The position numbers were made by a program, and so were the translations under genes. The notes under the pieces are model-generated. The model was not told the origin of the DNA, did no database searches, and was given only the letters and a program-made list of their open reading frames with translations. Below, in pieces: positions 21,917 to 48,710 of a stretch of DNA of 49,459 nt. The DNA is from a virus: IMG/VR virus record IMGVR_UViG_3300044949_001180, positions 1 to 49,459 of that record. One strand, written 5' to 3'. Within the stretch, counting starts at the first letter, position 1, and each line of letters begins with the position of its first letter.

Positions 21917-23419
21917 ATGGCTACCAAGCAAACTGCAACCGCGTTCGCTGACCGCCGCATCCTCGCGCTGCGTGCGTCGCTGGGCGCGTTCGCTGACGGC
22001 ATCAAGCCCACGATGAAGTCGCCGCTGCTCGTGGACGCAGCGTGCTCGTGGGTCGAGATGGCCTATGAGTCGGAGTGGAACGGCCATCCCGCTGGGCCGT
22101 TCGCTTTCACGCGCGCGGTGTTCGCGGACATCAAGCGCCTCTACGACATGGGCGAGCAGCCGGTGCCTGTGCTGTGGGGCCATCCTCGCCACGACCTCGG
22201 CGTGCCTATCGATGCGGCTGGCTGGATTCAGGCGCTCGAGATTCGCGACGGTGCGCAGGGCGTCGAACTGTGGGGCTACGTCGAATGGACCAAAGACGCC
22301 GCTGACCGCATCGCGCTTGGTGCGCAGCGCTTCTGCTCGGTGGTCGTGGACTTCGCGCCGATTGACCGCGTCACCGGCGAGAGCGCGGGCCTCGCTGAGC
22401 TGTACGAACTTGGGCTCACGCCGAGTCCATTTCTGCCGGGCATGACGCCCATCACTCTCTCCCGCGTCGGGGCTCCGTCGCGGAAATCCACAAGGAGTCT
22501 CGCAATGGATCCCACGAAGGTTTTGATGGCAATCGCGACGGCGCTCGGCCTCAAGAAGGACGCCACGCCGGAGAAGATGAAGAAGGCCTTTGACGCGCTC
22601 GTTGCGCTCGCTGGCGCGATGGCAGAGGAGTCGATGCCCGTCGCGGAAATCGCGTCGGAGGGCGTCGCTGAGATGATGATGGATGAGAAGAAGGTCAAGG
22701 GCCTCTCGCGCATCGCTGCTGGCGTCCGCAAGCTCGCGGATGAGCTGCTCATCGAGGAGATGCCCGACGTCGAGGATATGGCTGAGGAGGCCAGCGAAGC
22801 GGCTGGCACGATGATTCTCGGCAAGCTCACCGAAGCGACCGGCCTTGACGAAGCTGGCGTCGTCGCGGCCATCACCGAGAAGCTCGACCAGATCGCGGCG
22901 ATGCTCGTCGCGGGCCCGGTGAGCGGCATGAGCGCCGACGCTGGCGCGCAGATGATGCGCCAGACCACGGAACTCTCGGCGCACAAGGCTCGCGCGGTCG
23001 AGCTCGCGGCGACGGTACAGACGCTCCAGGCGCAGGTCGCGGAGCTGTCGCAGGAGCGTGCGCAGCGTCAGGCGCTCGAGCGCACGGCCCGCATCGCGGC
23101 GTCGTTCTCGCGTCTCATGGGCGAGGGCCGCGTCACGGAGGCGCAGCGCGATACGTTCGTGAAGGCGTCAGAGCAGAACGAGACTCTTGCGCTCGACATC
23201 TACTCGGCGCTTCCCGCGACCGCGCAGCCGCCTGTCGGCGCGCTCGTCACCGGCCCGAAGGCCGCGCGCGAGAACAGCGTCGCGAAGCTCTCTTCGAGCG
23301 ACCCGCTCGTCAACATTTTCCGCGCTGACGCAAAGGCCGCTGGCCTGCGTGGCAAGGCTGCGGATGACCATGTCGCCGTGATGCTCTCCAAGCACGCGGC
23401 TCGCAACTCGGGCGCTTGA
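21917..23419 (+). CDS. Mu gpI-like prohead protease-scaffold protein
   Basis: A 500-aa protein. The N-terminal part (VPVLWGHPRHDLGVPIDAAG ... RFCSVVVDF) matches the Mu I-type head maturation protease, which cuts the scaffold once the prohead is built. The C-terminal 300 residues are highly charged helix with a coiled-coil stretch (VELAATVQTLQAQVAELSQE), i.e. scaffold, plus a terminal helical head-binding region. The catalytic residues cannot be placed with certainty from sequence alone. Confidence 0.82.
   Translation: MATKQTATAFADRRILALRASLGAFADGIKPTMKSPLLVDAACSWVEMAYESEWNGHPAGPFAFTRAVFADIKRLYDMGEQPVPVLWGHPRHDLGVPIDAAGWIQALEIRDGAQGVELWGYVEWTKDAADRIALGAQRFCSVVVDFAPIDRVTGESAGLAELYELGLTPSPFLPGMTPITLSRVGAPSRKSTRSLAMDPTKVLMAIATALGLKKDATPEKMKKAFDALVALAGAMAEESMPVAEIASEGVAEMMMDEKKVKGLSRIAAGVRKLADELLIEEMPDVEDMAEEASEAAGTMILGKLTEATGLDEAGVVAAITEKLDQIAAMLVAGPVSGMSADAGAQMMRQTTELSAHKARAVELAATVQTLQAQVAELSQERAQRQALERTARIAASFSRLMGEGRVTEAQRDTFVKASEQNETLALDIYSALPATAQPPVGALVTGPKAARENSVAKLSSSDPLVNIFRADAKAAGLRGKAADDHVAVMLSKHAARNSGA
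22505..23419 (+). CDS. Nested in-frame scaffold protein (Mu gpZ-like)
   Basis: An internal ATG (MDPTKVLMAIATALGLKK) in the same frame as the protease gene has a strong AAGGAG seven bases upstream (22492-22497). It would yield a 304-aa scaffold alone. In Mu the same gene gives protease (I) and scaffold (Z) this way. The SD in the middle of coding sequence is the key evidence. Confidence 0.75.
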   Translation: MDPTKVLMAIATALGLKKDATPEKMKKAFDALVALAGAMAEESMPVAEIASEGVAEMMMDEKKVKGLSRIAAGVRKLADELLIEEMPDVEDMAEEASEAAGTMILGKLTEATGLDEAGVVAAITEKLDQIAAMLVAGPVSGMSADAGAQMMRQTTELSAHKARAVELAATVQTLQAQVAELSQERAQRQALERTARIAASFSRLMGEGRVTEAQRDTFVKASEQNETLALDIYSALPATAQPPVGALVTGPKAARENSVAKLSSSDPLVNIFRADAKAAGLRGKAADDHVAVMLSKHAARNSGA

Positions 23420-42658: not shown

Positions 42659-43600
42659 ATGGCTGCCTCGCTAGACAGAACGCTAGCAAGACTGCTGCCG
42701 ACCTTTCAGGTCTTTGGCACTGGTGACCCGCTTACCGGCTCTGCATCGATTACGCTCGGCGCGCTGACGTCAGCAAGCGACGGTGTCGTCCCTGTCGTCG
42801 GTGCAGCGTCGGTCACGCTCGGCGATGCGACGCTAAGCAGCGACGGCACCGTCTCGTCTGGTGTCAGCGGCAACGCGTCGATCACGCTCGGCGCGCTGAC
42901 CTCGGCAAGCGCTGGCGTCGTGCTCGTCGAGGGCGACGCGGCCGTCACGCTCGGTGCGCTGACGTCGACGAGCGCGGGCGTCGTGCCGGTGCAGGGCTCG
43001 CTCTCTGCGATGCTGGGTACGCTGACGGCGACGAGCTCGGGCACCGTCCCAGCGATTGGCGCGGCGACCATTGCGCTTGGTGCGTTGACGTCCTCGAGCG
43101 CGGGCAAGGTCGCCGTCGTCGGGCAGCTCGCGACGACACTCGGCGCAGCCACGCTAGCGGCCTCTGGCAGCGTCCCAGCACAGGGCGCACTGTCAGCTGC
43201 CCTCGGCGCGCTGACAGCGTCCAGCGCGGGCGTGGTGCCAGCAACAGGCACACTCGCCACTACGCTCGGCGCGCTTACGGGTAGCAGCGCTGGCGTCGTC
43301 GTCGTCGCGGGCACAGTCGACGCAACGCTCGGCGCGCTGACTGCAACTGCGGACGGCGAGGTCGAGACGCGCCTCGTCGCGGCAATCACGCTCGGCAGCC
43401 TCGACTGCTACTCGACGAACATCCCGTTCGTGCCGTCTGCGGAGCGCATTACCGACGTCCCATCGTGGCCGCGTGCGCTCATCGCTGAGGTCGTCGCGCG
43501 CGACAACGTCGTTCCGGCGCAGCCGCGCGAGCGCGAGGCGGTGCAGCCTGAGCGCGTGATCGAACTGACCAGTCCCGTTCGCATCGTGGAGGCCGCATGA
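42659..43600 (+). CDS. Tandem-repeat beta protein
   Basis: A 313-aa protein with about ten tandem units of about 21 residues of the form GxxxxTLGALTxxSxGVVPV (residues about 26-245), then a non-repeat C-terminus (FVPSAERITDVPSWPRALIA). This suggests a regular beta solenoid or fibre, variable in repeat number. The unit of 63 nt is mirrored in the DNA. AGGAG upstream of ATG. Likely a virion fibre-like component. Confidence 0.75.
   Translation: MAASLDRTLARLLPTFQVFGTGDPLTGSASITLGALTSASDGVVPVVGAASVTLGDATLSSDGTVSSGVSGNASITLGALTSASAGVVLVEGDAAVTLGALTSTSAGVVPVQGSLSAMLGTLTATSSGTVPAIGAATIALGALTSSSAGKVAVVGQLATTLGAATLAASGSVPAQGALSAALGALTASSAGVVPATGTLATTLGALTGSSAGVVVVAGTVDATLGALTATADGEVETRLVAAITLGSLDCYSTNIPFVPSAERITDVPSWPRALIAEVVARDNVVPAQPREREAVQPERVIELTSPVRIVEAA
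42734..43390 (+). repeat. Coding tandem repeat, about 63-nt units
   Basis: About ten imperfect units of 63 nt, each containing a version of CTCGGCGCGCTGAC (Leu-Gly-Ala-Leu-Thr). Divergence between units is high, so this is old duplication in a coding frame, not a CRISPR array. Confidence 0.7.
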
Positions 43601-43899: not shown

Positions 43900-43938
43900 T
43901 CTCACCTCGGCAGCGGTCATCCTCGCCCGCGCCCGTAG

Positions 43939-43996
43939 GCTCCGCATCTCTGCTCTGCGTGTCGGCGCAGCGCGGGGATGCGGAGCTTTTCGTTTT
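43939..43996 (+). terminator. Intrinsic terminator of the rightward block
   Basis: GCTCCGCATC (43939-43948) and GATGCGGAGC (43977-43986) form a perfect 10-bp stem, followed by TTTTCGTTTT. The loop is 28 nt, so secondary structure within it is likely. It marks the end of the rightward transcription unit against the convergent leftward genes. Confidence 0.8.
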
Positions 43997-43999
43997 CCG

Positions 44000-44746
44000 T
44001 CAGCGCGCCAGCGTAGTGACCTCGACGCGCCCGCAGCCGTACGCGACTCGCGCGCCCAGCCCGACGCCGCGCGACGCAGCCTCGAGGACGTAGCGCGTGC
44101 TCGCATCGCAGACGAGGTCGACGGTGCCGATGAGGCCGTCAACGCGCCCGACCTTGCCTCGGTAATAGACGGGCACCCATTCGGTGCGCGCGTCGAGCAC
44201 CGACAGCGTCAGCTGACCGGGGAACAGCTCGAGCTTGCGCGCCGTCGACCACGCAGCCGACGTGATCGAGCGCGTGTCCGCAGTGCGCGCCGATACCTTG
44301 CGCCCGTCGCTCTGCGTCTCGCTCACGACAAGCGGCGTGCGCAGCGTCAGCCGCGCGAGATGAACGCCTGCGGTGTAGCGCGGTGGCGCGTGCATCCGCA
44401 TCTGCGGGCCGAATCGCAACGCGACGTCGCGTCGCCCGATGCGTGATGCGCGCGAGGTCATCGACAACGCAGCGGCGTCGGCCTCGCTCCACCACGCGAC
44501 GGCCCAGCCTGATGAGCACGCCCATGGAACCAGCGTCCAGTCGCTGCGCGTGTGCCCGGTGCGCGGCTGGTGCCCGCGGCCGAGAGCGCCGCTAATCGCC
44601 GCGTGCAGCCACGAGCACTCGTGCAGTTCGAGCGGGCGCGTGTACCCGTCGAGCGCGATAGGCGTGCCGACGCACAGCACGTCGCGATCGAGCGTCGCGC
44701 AGGGACGCAGCCAGTCGTCGTCAGAGGTCACGGCGAGCGCGCTCAT
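44000..44746 (-). CDS. Cas6-like RAMP protein (candidate crRNA endonuclease)
   Basis: A 248-aa protein, last gene of the type IV operon, start ATGA overlapped with cysH. The C-terminus (residues 193-212 VYYRGKVGRVDGLIGTVDL; 227-243 GVGLGARVAYGCGRVEV) has the Gly-rich loop of Cas6/Csf5-type RAMP proteins; the first half has one region with Trp and His residues (ECSWLHAAISGA). In type IV-A, Csf5 is the crRNA-cutting Cas6. A Cas6-like gene is unexpected beside cysH. The catalytic residue is not evident, so it could also be an RNA-binding paralogue. Confidence 0.6.
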   Translation of the reverse strand: MSALAVTSDDDWLRPCATLDRDVLCVGTPIALDGYTRPLELHECSWLHAAISGALGRGHQPRTGHTRSDWTLVPWACSSGWAVAWWSEADAAALSMTSRASRIGRRDVALRFGPQMRMHAPPRYTAGVHLARLTLRTPLVVSETQSDGRKVSARTADTRSITSAAWSTARKLELFPGQLTLSVLDARTEWVPVYYRGKVGRVDGLIGTVDLVCDASTRYVLEAASRGVGLGARVAYGCGRVEVTTLAR

Positions 44747-45516
44747 CGCAACAGCCTCACGCGCGGGAATGCCGCCTCAAGGCGTCGGTACTCGGCCGGG
44801 AAGTGCTGCGCGAGCCAAGAGATACGACCAGAGCCCGCGCCGGTAGTAGTCAGCCAGCCACCATTACGCAGCGTTTCGCGGGTCTTGCCATGCGTCTCGC
44901 AGTCGTAGAGTCGGTGGTATGGCAAATCGTGTGTCGCGATATACGCCCACACGTCGCGCGCCTCCCACCACGCAAGCGGATTCGCCGTCGTGACGCCCGA
45001 TTGCCGCGTAAAAATCAGACCGTGATATTTGAAATGCGCGCTTCGGCCGGGCGCTTCCTCCGCGCGCATCCCCATGATCGTGACGTCAATTCCGTTCGCG
45101 GCCGTCCACTCAGTGCCGCCGACCTTCTTGTGCGTGGACCGCGCTTGCTTCTCGCGCCGGGTCTTCTCGTAGCCGAGTCCGTTTGTCGAGAGCCACGCGA
45201 TCATCTCTTCGACGCTGCGGCTCGGCGGCACGACGTGGACGTCAGTGCGCGAGCGGAAGTGCTGCTCGACGTGCTCGCTCCCCGGCAGCGGGTACGCGTG
45301 CGCGAGATGATATATGGGCACTCGTCGGCCAAGCGTCCTGAGCACGATATCCGCGACGACGACGGAGTCTTTGCCCCACGACATGGCAATCGCGACAGAG
45401 CCCCGCGATGCCGCACGCTCGACCACGTCGACAGCCATCGCGACGCGTCGCTGGTGGATGCCGCCCTCGGCCCATGCGCGATAGCGCTTGCGCCAGTCCA
45501 GCGTCAGAGCGGACAC
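44743..45516 (-). CDS. cysH: CysH/PAPS reductase-like PP-loop protein
   Basis: A 257-aa protein from GTG 45516 (GAGGAGG upstream), overlapping csf3 by 13 nt. PP-loop motif SWGKDS at residues 46-51 binds the nucleotide pyrophosphate; MGMRAEEAPGR (149-159) and NPLAWWEARDVWAYI (179-193) match the PAPS reductase family core. CysH-like genes are the known companion of subtype IV-B CRISPR loci. Their role there is not established. The long upstream open frame is not coding. Confidence 0.85.
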   Translation of the reverse strand: MSALTLDWRKRYRAWAEGGIHQRRVAMAVDVVERAASRGSVAIAMSWGKDSVVVADIVLRTLGRRVPIYHLAHAYPLPGSEHVEQHFRSRTDVHVVPPSRSVEEMIAWLSTNGLGYEKTRREKQARSTHKKVGGTEWTAANGIDVTIMGMRAEEAPGRSAHFKYHGLIFTRQSGVTTANPLAWWEARDVWAYIATHDLPYHRLYDCETHGKTRETLRNGGWLTTTGAGSGRISWLAQHFPAEYRRLEAAFPRVRLLR

Positions 45517-46160
45517 GCGACCTCCTCTTCGCGCGCGCGCGCCCAGTATGGTGGGCGCACGCAGCCGATACGCGTTGCGTGGTCGCGCAGGCCCGGCACG
45601 TCGAGCGGCAGATGACGCATCGGCACGCCTTCGACGCTCAGCGTCGGAAAGCCCTGCCATGTCTCGTCCATTTCCTCGACGCGCCACGCGTGCACGGTGC
45701 CCTCGCCAGCAGCGCGACGACGGCCAAGGCGCGACACCAGCGACAGCAGCTCGCGCACGCGCTCCGCGTCTCCGATGGCATACCAGTGCAGCTCGCGCAC
45801 GTGCATCGTCTCGACGGGGATGTGGTGTGCCTTGCAGCTGCCCTCCGACATTTGGATGCGGCGCATGGTCGGCCCGCCGAATGTTACCGCCTCTTGCAAA
45901 GGAAACCGCCGATTCAGCCAGCGCTGCTCGCGTGCCTCGACGTGCGCGAGGCTGGTCGTGCAGAGGTAGTAGCGCCCGCAATCGGAGAGCGCGATAGGTA
46001 TGTCGAGCGGATGCGCCTCGACGGCGTCGCGCTGCGTGTAGAGCGGCGGCGCATCGTCGCGGCGTGCGACCGCGGCCATGAGCAGCGCATCGAGGTGAAT
46101 GCCCTCGACGGGCAGCATAAGACGCGTCTCCATCGTCGCGACGACGCGCAGCGGCCTCAT
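45504..46160 (-). CDS. csf3: Csf3 (Cas5-like) type IV effector subunit
   Basis: A 218-aa RAMP protein. Near the start VEGIHLDALLMAA (residues 19-31) matches the Csf3 N-terminal pattern, and residues 129-163 (GDAERVRELLSLVSRLGRRR, then AAGEGTVHAWRVEE) contain the Gly-rich loop that follows the second ferredoxin fold. Csf3 caps the 5' end of the guide RNA in the type IV complex. Start overlaps csf2's end as ATGA. Confidence 0.82.
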   Translation of the reverse strand: MRPLRVVATMETRLMLPVEGIHLDALLMAAVARRDDAPPLYTQRDAVEAHPLDIPIALSDCGRYYLCTTSLAHVEAREQRWLNRRFPLQEAVTFGGPTMRRIQMSEGSCKAHHIPVETMHVRELHWYAIGDAERVRELLSLVSRLGRRRAAGEGTVHAWRVEEMDETWQGFPTLSVEGVPMRHLPLDVPGLRDHATRIGCVRPPYWARAREEEVACPL

Positions 46161-47158
46161 GCCTGCACCTTCTCGAGCATGGCCTTCAACGCGTCAGCCC
46201 GCTCCGCGACGTGCGCGCGGAAGCGAGCAATCTCGGGCGCGCGATTGTCACCAGTGACGGCGAGCGCGTCGAGCTTCTCGGGCGCTGCTGACACGTCACG
46301 CTCGAGGCCGCGCGCGGCGATCGGCACCAGCAGCCCGTGGCCCGTGCCCTTCTTGCCGCCGACACGCGCGCGCGAAAGGAACGCAGCGAGCATCACGTAA
46401 AGCGTGTCGCGCTCAAGTTGCGAGTGCGTCGTCGCATCGAGCCTCCAGATGAACAGCGAGCCCGCGCTCAGCGTCTCGTAGGTGAATGGCATCATCGTCG
46501 ACTTCTCGCGGTCCTTGCCCGCTGCGTCATCGCGCGCGCTGGCGACCTCGCTAGCGAGCAAGCGATTCTCGGTCTTGAGTTGCTCGCCGCCGCTCAGCAG
46601 CAAGCGTTTGCGCGTGTCTAGCGTGGGGTCCATGCGCACGCGCTGCACGAGCTCGACGTGCTCGCGCGCGCTCGACGTCTCCGCGCCCTCGTGTGTCAAG
46701 TGCTCGACCACCCACGCAGGGGTCAAGTGCATCCACTCATCGCAGACAAGCATCGCATCGCCGCATTCGATCTTGCCCGGCTCGATGCGATTGCCGATGC
46801 AGCCGCCGAGCAGCCCGATATGCGGCATCAGTTCGCGCAGCTTGCGCGCGTCATCGATGCGCACGACCTCGTTCGCAGCGCCGAGAACCATTCCGCCAGA
46901 GAACAGCAGCCGCAGCGCAGCCTCGGTGAGCCCCGGCCCGCCGTCGAGCATCCCCGCGGCCTCGAGCAGCGCGTACGTGCCCGCCTCGCGCAGACCGTGC
47001 CGCATGGTGTCGCCGGTGATGTACGGGATTTTCGTCCATCGCCCGCTCGGCAAACGCACTTTGCGGCGCATCGCAACCTGCGTATTTCCGATGGTGCCCT
47101 CGGCGTGCGCGATGGGCTGCTCTGCGCGCAACAGAATCTCGATGCGATGACGCTCCAT
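46157..47158 (-). CDS. csf2: Csf2 (Cas7-like) type IV backbone subunit
   Basis: A 333-aa Cas7-type RAMP that polymerises along the guide RNA. Visible blocks: PYITGDTMRHGLREAG (residues 45-60), MPHIGLLGGCIGNRIEPGKI (111-130) with ECGDAMLVC, a central insertion rich in Arg, and the Gly-rich RVGGKKGTGHGLL near residue 280. These fit Csf2 of type IV. Starts at ATG 47158, overlapping the cas11 stop; GTG 47161 is possible. Confidence 0.85.
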   Translation of the reverse strand: MERHRIEILLRAEQPIAHAEGTIGNTQVAMRRKVRLPSGRWTKIPYITGDTMRHGLREAGTYALLEAAGMLDGGPGLTEAALRLLFSGGMVLGAANEVVRIDDARKLRELMPHIGLLGGCIGNRIEPGKIECGDAMLVCDEWMHLTPAWVVEHLTHEGAETSSAREHVELVQRVRMDPTLDTRKRLLLSGGEQLKTENRLLASEVASARDDAAGKDREKSTMMPFTYETLSAGSLFIWRLDATTHSQLERDTLYVMLAAFLSRARVGGKKGTGHGLLVPIAARGLERDVSAAPEKLDALAVTGDNRAPEIARFRAHVAERADALKAMLEKVQA

Positions 47159-47523
47159 CACTTGCCTTCCTCTCGCGCGGCCTTGCGCCGCTCTGCTTCA
47201 ACGCGTGTCCGCGCCATCAGATATCCAATCTCCGATTCCATCATGCCGAGCCACAACATCGGGTCGGCGTCGAGCACGCGCACAAAGCGGTCGATCGCGT
47301 TAGAACAGCGAGAGCTGCTTGCGCTCAGGTTCAACCCCTTGCGCAGCGCCGTCGTCAACTGCTCGCCGTTCGCGCTCGTGCGCAGCGCCATCAGCGTCCG
47401 GTCGTGCAACTGGTCCCAGTGCTTCATCGCGTTCGCGCCGTTCGCCAGATACTCCGCTCGCAACTCCAACAGCATCTCCACTGCCGCTTCCCGCACCGCG
47501 TCGGCCTTTGCCTCGTCCAGCAT
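47158..47523 (-). CDS. cas11: Cas11 small subunit
   Basis: A 121-aa all-helical protein (MLDEAKADAVREAAVEMLLE, DRFVRVLDADPMLWLGMMES) between csf1 and csf2, as in IV-B operons. ATG 47523 has AAGGAG seven bases upstream. Cas11 lines the inside of the complex. Its first 224 nt overlap the 3' end of the csf1 frame. Confidence 0.72.
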   Translation of the reverse strand: MLDEAKADAVREAAVEMLLELRAEYLANGANAMKHWDQLHDRTLMALRTSANGEQLTTALRKGLNLSASSSRCSNAIDRFVRVLDADPMLWLGMMESEIGYLMARTRVEAERRKAAREEGK

Positions 47524-48253
47524 TCTTCGACTCCTTTTCCAGCGCCATACGCGCCTGTACCGCCTCTTCGTCACGCTGTGAAAGCCACAGCGCCAACTCG
47601 TACCATCCACCGCCGCGCTCGCGTCCGTACTCGCGCTCGAAGTCGCGCACGCCACGCTCGGCCAACTGCCACGCTCGCGGCGTGTACTGGCCCGTCTCAA
47701 GCTCGGCCTTCGTGACGCCGGCCGTCAATAGGTCGCGCATCATGTCGGCCAGCATCCAGTCACCGACGACGACATCGCGCTGCTCAAAGCGCACGACCCC
47801 ATTCCCGCGCCAGCGAGCCGCGTTGACGCGCGCCCACGGTAAGACGTGCTTCTGCCCTGAGTCGGCAATCGCGGCCCACCACGCGCCTTGCTTGGGCCCG
47901 CGCAGCCACTCGCGAATAACAGGCTTCGATCCCTTGTTCGCGAAGACGTATCCGCGCTCGTCGTAGAGATGTGAGAACAGCCGCAGATTCACGCCGCGCT
48001 TGCCATCGGTCGCAGGCGGGTATCCAGGCGGCTGCACCCACGAGTGCACGTACACGCACGGCTCGCAGATGCGGTCCGACAACCCGTGCCCCATGAGCTT
48101 GTTTTGATCGGTGAACGATGCGCCCTGCCAGCGCTTGTAGGCGTGCGTCCGTGGCCAGTCGCGCGCGCAGACCACGCACGCAGCAGCGACGTCCTCGCAG
48201 CCCTCCTGCGGCGGTGAGCCCGCCACGCGGAACACGTCACGCGCCGCAGTCAC
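47300..48253 (-). CDS. csf1: Csf1 large subunit (zinc-finger, Cas8-like)
   Basis: A 317-aa protein. Zinc ligands C26, C29 (CVVC) and C63, C66 (CEPC) flank FTDQNKLMGHGLSDRI, the signature arrangement of Csf1, which is the type IV large subunit at the complex base. It begins at GTG 48253, GTGA overlap. The last about 75 residues (AGRGKGRRGAGSGSGDAVGV to QLSLF) are low complexity and lie over the cas11 frame, so the real protein may end near 47525 or a tail may be overprinted. Confidence 0.8.
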   Translation of the reverse strand: MTAARDVFRVAGSPPQEGCEDVAAACVVCARDWPRTHAYKRWQGASFTDQNKLMGHGLSDRICEPCVYVHSWVQPPGYPPATDGKRGVNLRLFSHLYDERGYVFANKGSKPVIREWLRGPKQGAWWAAIADSGQKHVLPWARVNAARWRGNGVVRFEQRDVVVGDWMLADMMRDLLTAGVTKAELETGQYTPRAWQLAERGVRDFEREYGRERGGGWYELALWLSQRDEEAVQARMALEKESKNAGRGKGRRGAGSGSGDAVGVASGVSGERRERDEALGPVARPDADGAAHERERRAVDDGAAQGVEPERKQLSLF

Positions 48254-48498
48254 GTCTCGCCCTTGCGCGTGACAAGCGCCTCGCGCAGCACCTCGAGCGC
48301 GGCCTCTGCGCGGTGGTACTCCGACTCGCGCCCATCGAGCGCCTGCCGCAGTTCGCGCTGTACGCGCGCGAGCGTCCGCATCGCGTCATCGCGCTGCGCC
48401 ATGCAGCGGTGAAGCTCGGCGTACTGGATGCCGAGCGTCTGCCGCAACTCGCGCAGCTCGGCCTCGATCTGCTGCACTCGCACTGCGTCGTCGCTCAT
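48250..48498 (-). CDS. Small coiled-coil protein, unknown
   Basis: An 82-aa protein (MSDDAVRVQQIEAELRELRQ), almost all coiled coil, GGAGG upstream of ATG. Directly before csf1 with a 4-nt overlap; similar in style to the early coiled-coil genes at the left end. It may belong to the early block more than to the CRISPR operon. Confidence 0.6.
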   Translation of the reverse strand: MSDDAVRVQQIEAELRELRQTLGIQYAELHRCMAQRDDAMRTLARVQRELRQALDGRESEYHRAEAALEVLREALVTRKGET

Positions 48499-48710
48499 AC
48501 CGCCTCCGTGAGCCAGTCCTCGGCCAGCCGCCACACACGCACGCTCGCGCCATCGAGCCACACGCGGCCCTCGCGCGCCGATTGCAGCCCGACAGTCAGC
48601 CCGCCGTCGAGCACCTCGACCACGCGCCAGACGCAGCCCCAGCCGTCGCGCAGGCGCATCCCGACCTCGATGACGGGCAGCGGTGAGGTGCCGGTGTAGA
48701 GCGTCGTCAT
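48495..48710 (-). CDS. Small beta-rich protein, unknown
   Basis: A 71-aa protein (MTTLYTGTSPLPVIEVGMRL) with a beta-like pattern GWGCVWRVVEVLDGGLTVGL, reminiscent of small SH3-like phage proteins. ATGA overlap with its upstream neighbour. Confidence 0.55.
   Translation of the reverse strand: MTTLYTGTSPLPVIEVGMRLRDGWGCVWRVVEVLDGGLTVGLQSAREGRVWLDGASVRVWRLAEDWLTEAV

Follow-up and report, generated by a model that had tools for sequence, protein, structure and literature searches.

A type IV-B-like CRISPR-Cas cassette with a Cas6-like gene and two types of CysH in related phages

Why would a phage with the effector genes of a CRISPR-Cas system, but with no CRISPR array that a search could find, keep a gene for a Cas6-like protein? 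The question is raised by a viral DNA sequence of 49,459 nucleotides (IMG/VR record IMGVR_UViG_3300044949_001180; the whole stretch was analysed and is hereafter called the window), in which six overlapping open reading frames (ORFs) on the minus strand, from position 48253 down to 44000, read as csf1, cas11, csf2, csf3, a cysH-like gene and a Cas6-like gene. By gene content, this operon is a type IV-B system plus one gene. In the loci seen, the six genes come and go as a single unit, inside which cysH is exchanged by recombination. Tentatively, with chances that fall somewhat short of even, this is a phage accessory cassette that combines an array-less IV-B Csf complex, a Cas6 of its own for RNA supplied in trans and an exchangeable CysH effector.

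Gene content and subtype of the operon

The original prediction, made from the sequence alone, called the six leftward genes and described them as a phage-borne operon of type IV-B-like character that includes CysH and a Cas6-like gene. Both the calls and the description are borne out by searches against PADLOC, NCBIfam and Pfam (Table 1). When compared with Cas profiles in hidden Markov model searches, all of the proteins find a match, the Cas6-like one weakly, except for the cysH product, which is recognized by Pfam PF01507; in particular, the ORFs at 46157-47161 and 45504-46160 match the PADLOC models of csf2 (Cas7) and csf3 (Cas5), respectively. The lack of matches to the Cas7 and Cas5 families, named in the prediction as a ground for refuting it, is thus not what is seen. 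Because all three NCBIfam csf models match below their cut-offs, the operon is a divergent member of its type. The cas11 gene overlaps the end of csf1 in another reading frame, and its start is placed near position 47523, provisionally, at an ATG common to the relatives. Two CxxC pairs are present in all five copies of csf1. The anatomy of the operon is well supported, and its mechanism is what we infer below.

The remainder of the window, which is a complete virus record, is that of a tailed phage, with matches to terminase, portal, head protease, major head protein, tape-measure protein and DnaB. When viral contigs in IMG/VR were scanned for Csf2, Cas6, Csf3 and CysH (type beta, see below), four further records emerged (L002, L003, L006 and L007), each with all six genes in unchanged order next to matching tail-side genes; among the five cassette-bearing records, Csf2 identity is 86-99%. 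In L002 and L003, regions corresponding to window positions 5.7 kb and 48.4 kb lie within a few kilobases of each other, and since this gene order joins positions 1 and 49459, the genome in the window would be circularly permuted and nearly complete.

Beyond this group, relatives are few and distant. Only one of 50,697 phage records, that of Skermania phage SPI1 (KR011061), contains a Csf2 match (26.6% identity), and SPI1 Csf2 used as the query found none among the viral contigs. Matches to window Csf2 occur in 22 plasmid records, mostly of Rhodococcus and Gordonia, two of them archaeal, and Csf3 has no match among the plasmids (tblastn at 1e-5). Two scans of the genome collection for Csf2 produced no relative, which is weak evidence given the short patterns used. 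The terminase matches 1,633 phage records, all at less than 60% identity (30.7-34.5% among the 12 matches listed).

The assignment to IV-B follows from both the gene content and the nature of Csf2. The csf1, csf2 and csf3 core and the cas11-like gene form one operon in five of the five records. A profile of six phage Csf2 sequences, compared with solved structures, matches the IV-B Csf2 structure (PDB 7JHY) at 5e-31, a Cas7c entry at 5.2e-11 and the solved IV-A Csf2 at 2.1e-7 to 7.8e-6; the window Csf2 as a single sequence matches 7JHY at 3.8e-13. In four cassette-bearing records (all but L002), there was no match to Cas1, to a DinG-type helicase (PF13307) or to RecD2 (TIGR01448), for which the controls were positive in 9, 10 and 11 of 14 genomes, respectively. 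The proposal that the operon is a mixture of IV-A and IV-B features thus stands in part: the Cas6-like gene is the sole IV-A-like trait, whereas DinG and an array were not found and Csf2 is nearer to IV-B. In the parts of the two sources consulted, IV-B is said to have no enzyme that processes CRISPR RNA (crRNA; PMC8175902), or 'generally' to have none (PMC7937560). The Cas6-like gene, present in all five records, departs from this usual description, and the operon is therefore called a IV-B variant.

Gain, loss and recombination of the cassette

Whether the Cas6-like gene belongs with the Csf genes or merely lies beside them can be gleaned from the eight records in which both flanks of the locus are available. 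Five of these contain all six genes and three (G024, G035 and G028) contain none; an operon with only some of the genes was not seen. The number of records is small, and G024 was chosen for a scar match, G035 and G028 for their length, with most other related records being fragments. The three empty sites differ in detail: in G028, the upstream gene ends in a stop codon that is joined directly to the sequence that follows the cas6 stop, in G035 a few bases of the cas6 end are left, and in G024 csf1 is reduced to its first 20 bases, fused to the last 13 codons of cas6, a junction best read as a deletion scar that spans the first gene to cas6. Apart from this scar, whole-record searches of the three found no Csf2, CysH or Cas6. 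Because the empty sites lack all six genes and one scar joins the csf1 start to the cas6 end, cas6 is, in the loci seen, part of a single six-gene gain/loss cassette.

A wider set of 33 related records, drawn from 65 loci with a terminase or tail gene (those of greater length and a few short ones, mostly fragments), was searched with the same kind of profiles and gave no Csf2 match, one Cas6 match (the G024 scar) and, in other records, four partial CysH-family matches. The latter (G007 22410-22835 and three further loci, L100-L103 in all) have related tail genes nearby and no Csf2 match, and are probably other PP-loop proteins. In L007, a 404-amino-acid protein (1494-2708) that is absent from the window is encoded within the flank upstream of the cassette; with its PCQSF motif, it resembles a DNA cytosine methyltransferase.

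Five genes of the cassette, csf1, csf2, csf3, cas6 and, within its types, cysH, are under purifying selection. The ratio of nonsynonymous to synonymous substitution rates (dN/dS) is 0.15-0.44, 0.07-0.20, 0.10-0.31 and 0.13-0.32 for the first four (10 pairs each) and 0.08-0.28 for cysH in four pairs within types. Between the two types of CysH, dN/dS is 0.53-0.91, with changes nearly saturated.

These two types of CysH are distributed in a way that does not follow the rest of the operon. CysH alpha is encoded in the window and L002 (81% identical) and CysH beta in L003, L006 and L007 (70-92%), with an identity of 27-31% between the types, and yet they are found inside operons in which the neighbouring genes are up to 99% identical. 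The boundary is sharp: between L002 and L003, DNA identity is 98-99% over the latter half of csf3 and complete for cysH codons 1-7, then falls to 33-47% within cysH, and from the cas6 start L003 matches the window instead (85-91%). The cas6 genes likewise come in two types, one in the window and L003 (93% protein identity) and the other in L002, L006 and L007 (74-75% from the window), and all four combinations of CysH and cas6 types are present. Unrooted trees of csf1, csf2, csf3, cysH and cas6 disagree, the conflicting splits having support of 0.99-1.0 and one other split 0.89. Because divergent cysH types sit in near-identical operons and both are combined with both cas6 types, the sequences indicate that cysH has been exchanged between operons by recombination; an assembly chimera is unlikely because beta comes from three metagenomes and alpha occurs in two records. 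A small tree groups alpha and beta (0.967) on long branches, so that the two types may be old relatives and what is recent would be the exchange, a pattern suggestive of variable pressure on the CysH step. As to the other genes, the csf1-csf3 DNA (window 45501-48508) is 81-85% identical to that of L003, L006 and L007, compared with about 67-80% for many structural stretches and up to 85% for a few, as if this stretch had been shared between phages by recombination.

The CysH proteins themselves bear on a different explanation, namely, that the locus is a sulfur-metabolism island in which cysH would be one of the usual auxiliary metabolic genes of phages, beside unrelated genes. Both types do match PHROG families of phosphoadenosine phosphosulfate (PAPS) reductases (6.9e-20 and 1.7e-10). 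However, ECGxH, a pattern that we take to be the catalytic-cysteine motif, is found in none of 15 CysH sequences (five from the phages, one from SPI1 and nine from plasmids), the five phage copies included, whereas the S-x-GKDS loop is found in all 15, as SWGKDS in the five phages and as SGGKDS in SPI1 and the nine plasmids. In hhalign comparisons, alpha and beta match plasmid IV-B CysH at 99.4% and 97.2%, respectively, and cysH is lost along with the Csf genes. The sulfur island is already contradicted by these findings and is exceedingly improbable; judged by their motifs, the phage proteins are of the CasCysH kind, with the PP-loop kept and the catalytic cysteine absent. Pfam PF01507 does not recognize CysH beta, and operons with this type may, for this reason, be under-annotated. 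The structure model of CysH beta is poor, with a predicted local distance difference test score (pLDDT) of 42.

Table 1. Features of the cassette and its edges in the window, with profile matches given as E-values.
Feature	Coordinates	Strand	Length	Matches and remarks
csf1, large subunit	47300..48253	-	317 aa	PADLOC 8.3e-18; NCBIfam 3.2e-5 (below cut-off)
cas11, small subunit	47158..47523	-	~121 aa	PADLOC typeIV_Cas11 9.7e-8, on ORF 47158-47700
csf2 (Cas7)	46157..47161	-	334 aa	PADLOC 3.2e-47; NCBIfam 6e-10 (below cut-off)
csf3 (Cas5)	45504..46160	-	218 aa	PADLOC 2.3e-42; NCBIfam 2.6e-20 (below cut-off)
cysH-like, type alpha	44743..45513	-	256 aa	Pfam PF01507 6.6e-15 (above cut-off); SWGKDS loop, ECGxH absent
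Cas6-like, last cassette gene	44000..44746	-	248 aa	PADLOC Cas6 2.3e-4
Small upstream gene	48250..48498	-		Stop overlaps csf1 start; upstream cassette edge, seen in the empty sites of G024, G035 and G028
Stem-loop and T-run	43937..43988	+		Fold -45 kcal/mol, z -5.1; kept in 8/8 loci

The Cas6-like protein and the RNA it may act on

If the cassette retains a Cas6, where would the RNA for it come from? Because the phage keeps Cas6 but no array, precursor crRNA (pre-crRNA) of the host or of a third party is the likeliest substrate. Cas6 would cut repeat-bearing transcripts that are not encoded by the phage, from host CRISPR arrays or from those of co-resident elements, the product would be bound by Csf3, Csf2, Cas11 and Csf1, and CasCysH, which resembles ATP pyrophosphatases and lacks the cysteine for sulfur reduction, would act on what the Csf complex binds. 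The likeliest gain for the phage would be counter-defence, through depletion of host guide RNAs, or the turning of those guides on competitors. Parts of this scheme have precedents in the sections of PMC8175902 that were available, where CasCysH is said to resemble ATP pyrophosphatases and possibly to act through ATP alpha-hydrolysis, and where the use or sponging of foreign crRNAs is proposed for IV-B. The full version of guide stealing, in which an array-less phage IV-B system cuts the pre-crRNA of another genome with a dedicated Cas6 and swaps CysH between near-identical operons as a counter-defence, is possible but doubtful.

All five copies of the Cas6-like protein match the same PADLOC Cas6 model, weakly, the best E-value being that of the window, for which it is the sole match. 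When the low-confidence structure model was searched with Foldseek, the first ten chains came from repeat-associated mysterious protein (RAMP), Cse3, Cas6 or type I-B Cascade entries, three of them at E <= 0.001; type IV Cas6/Csf5 ranked 14 and 18, no nearer than other Cas6. The candidate explanation of a duplicated csf3 was rejected (hhalign 1.4%), and a search of the plasmids with the Cas6-like protein (tblastn at E 1) found no match.

Several observations weigh against a guide-processing Cas6. The PADLOC E-values are weak in L003 (2.7e-3) as in the window, Pfam and NCBIfam give no confirming match (below threshold or absent), and a profile search of the PDB with the Cas6 alignment found no Cas6, the one match being unrelated (E 0.95). 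The AlphaFold model has a pLDDT of 46, and in VIA-align it scores higher with an unrelated protein with two RNA recognition motifs (RRMs) (Z 7.5) than with Cas6 (Z 6.6, 183 residues), so that the fold match alone is not decisive. Furthermore, according to the parts of PMC7937560 consulted, the JS623 IV-B ribonucleoprotein assembled on heterogeneous RNA and showed no enrichment of crRNAs when an array and Cas6 were expressed alongside it.

The weak match, the fit to general RRM folds and the assembly of the JS623 complex on heterogeneous RNA would all be accommodated by the main rival explanation, in which the Cas6-like protein serves for structure or RNA binding and is no nuclease, the complex coats RNA unguided and CysH is the decisive component. 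Against this stand the low dN/dS of cas6, the four histidines (H42, H48, H59 and H65) that are invariant in five of the five copies, and the inclusion of cas6 in the gain/loss unit; moreover, SPI1 and plasmid IV-B manage without a Cas6 in the proteins tested. On balance, a non-catalytic subunit is rather unlikely.

Alternatively, the phage could have a guide source of its own that escaped recognition, a degenerate mini-array or a lone repeat processed by Cas6. There are precedents, as the consulted parts of the literature report a two-repeat mini-array at an archaeal virus IV-B locus (PMC10848311) and lone repeats in phages (PMC10651486). Arrays were sought with an 11-nucleotide exact seed for repeats of at least 20 nucleotides at a spacing of 44-120, a search that degenerate pairs would escape. 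Repeat pairs were found in the window (one), L003 (two) and L007 (two), all within the 63-nucleotide protein repeats of a tail-side gene, in L002 (one, in a coding sequence) and in SPI1 (nine, in a repetitive coding region), with none in L006 or in the rest of the L003 and L006 records. No pair is array-like, so no CRISPR array was detected in the five cassette-bearing records, although degenerate ones could escape, and Rfam gave no match in six sources. To be without an array is usual for IV-B, with published exceptions. With no pair at array spacing other than in protein repeats or coding sequence, a guide source encoded by the phage is improbable. The tail-side gene (window 42659-43600) consists of Ala/Thr/Gly-rich repeats of about 63 nucleotides (21 amino acids), the number of which varies among the relatives.

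A strong, conserved hairpin lies 3' of cas6, and it would suit the idea that the target of Cas6 is a hairpin unrelated to CRISPR, in mRNA of the phage or of its host, the complex being a gene regulator. As a Cas6 substrate or lone repeat, however, this hairpin was rejected: its T-run fits the opposite strand, and all three empty sites have it as well. It is better read as the probable terminator of the convergent structural genes, outside the cassette (a simple terminator scan did not list it, probably owing to the loop limit), and a regulatory role of this kind is quite improbable.

The reading with RNA supplied in trans is the likeliest of those considered. The interest of the cassette is in what it makes accessible. 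A Cas6-like gene inside a IV-B gain/loss cassette points to a defined, searchable RNA substrate. One conserved operon with either of two CysH types is an experiment, made by nature, on what this helper does, and any benefit of the cassette can be tested directly by comparing sister phages that have it with those that lack it. If guide stealing is true, this would be a natural case of a IV-B complex using processed guides, in a subtype for which binding and action are described as unknown in the parts of the reviews consulted (PMC8175902, PMC11127173).

Comparison with known systems

Among the known systems, that of phage SPI1 is likewise phage-borne. Its orf40-44, annotated only as hypothetical proteins, correspond to csf1-cas11-csf2-csf3-cysH in the same order as in the window, but none of eight neighbouring proteins tested matches Cas6, and Csf2 is as distant as stated above. 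The IV-B system of the Mycobacterium sp. JS623 megaplasmid (PDB 7JHY) shares csf1, cas11, csf2, csf3 and the association with cysH but, as described in the parts of PMC7937560 consulted, is plasmid-borne and has an operon without cas6; Asp42 of its Csf2, discussed there, falls in an insertion relative to the phage Csf2 profile. Other plasmid IV-B loci, such as those of Xylanimonas pXCEL01 and Thermococcus nautili THER333_p, have cysH behind the csf genes and in the same orientation but differ in that a separate Cas6 was found in none of 10 proteins tested (from 7 of 10 loci) and Csf2 is only 21-28% identical.

Some of these plasmids deserve a note of their own. A Thermococcus nautili plasmid gene annotated as Cas6 (L016 5339-6082) matches the Csf3 model far better (1.7e-50 vs 2e-7) and probably is csf3. 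On a Frondihabitans plasmid, a 110-amino-acid protein (L022 5998-6330) matches only positions 16-102 of the 235 of the Csf3 profile, so that csf3 may be split or shortened there, and an Actinarchaeum plasmid has a second gene annotated as PAPS-reductase family (L021 9130-9363) about 2 kb past the IV-B cysH.

Viruses with type IV systems have been described before. The Fuxivirus IV-B system of Bathyarchaeia viruses is, like that of the window, virus-borne, has a CysH-like gene and lacks an adaptation module, but it belongs to an archaeal virus and includes the mini-array mentioned above (PMC10848311, consulted in part; the word cas6 is absent from the main text). The same paper refers to earlier accounts of type IV systems in prophages as well as lytic phages, and phage-borne type IV is also reported in PMC11656645, as far as the parts seen go. 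The combination of an IV-B-derived Cas7 with Cas6 resembles type IV-D: a variant with such a Cas7 and a RecD helicase is published (PMC12669027) and is listed with Cas6 as IV-D (PMC11127173), but in the parts of these sources consulted IV-D has RecD in place of CysH and a Cas5 from IV-A. Type IV-A also has Cas6 alongside the effector genes, as in the phage cassette, but differs from it by the presence of DinG and an array and the lack of Cas11 (PMC8175902, PMC7937560, both in part).

Judging by the portions of this literature that were seen, virus-borne IV-B is therefore not new, and an IV-B-like Cas7 beside Cas6 has its precedent in IV-D. The open-licence literature in PMC, covered by titles, starts of abstracts and passages, contained no phage IV-B with cas6 in a cysH/cas11 operon and no exchange of CysH; as far as this literature shows, what is new here is Cas6 within a phage cysH/cas11 IV-B operon, together with the exchange of CysH.

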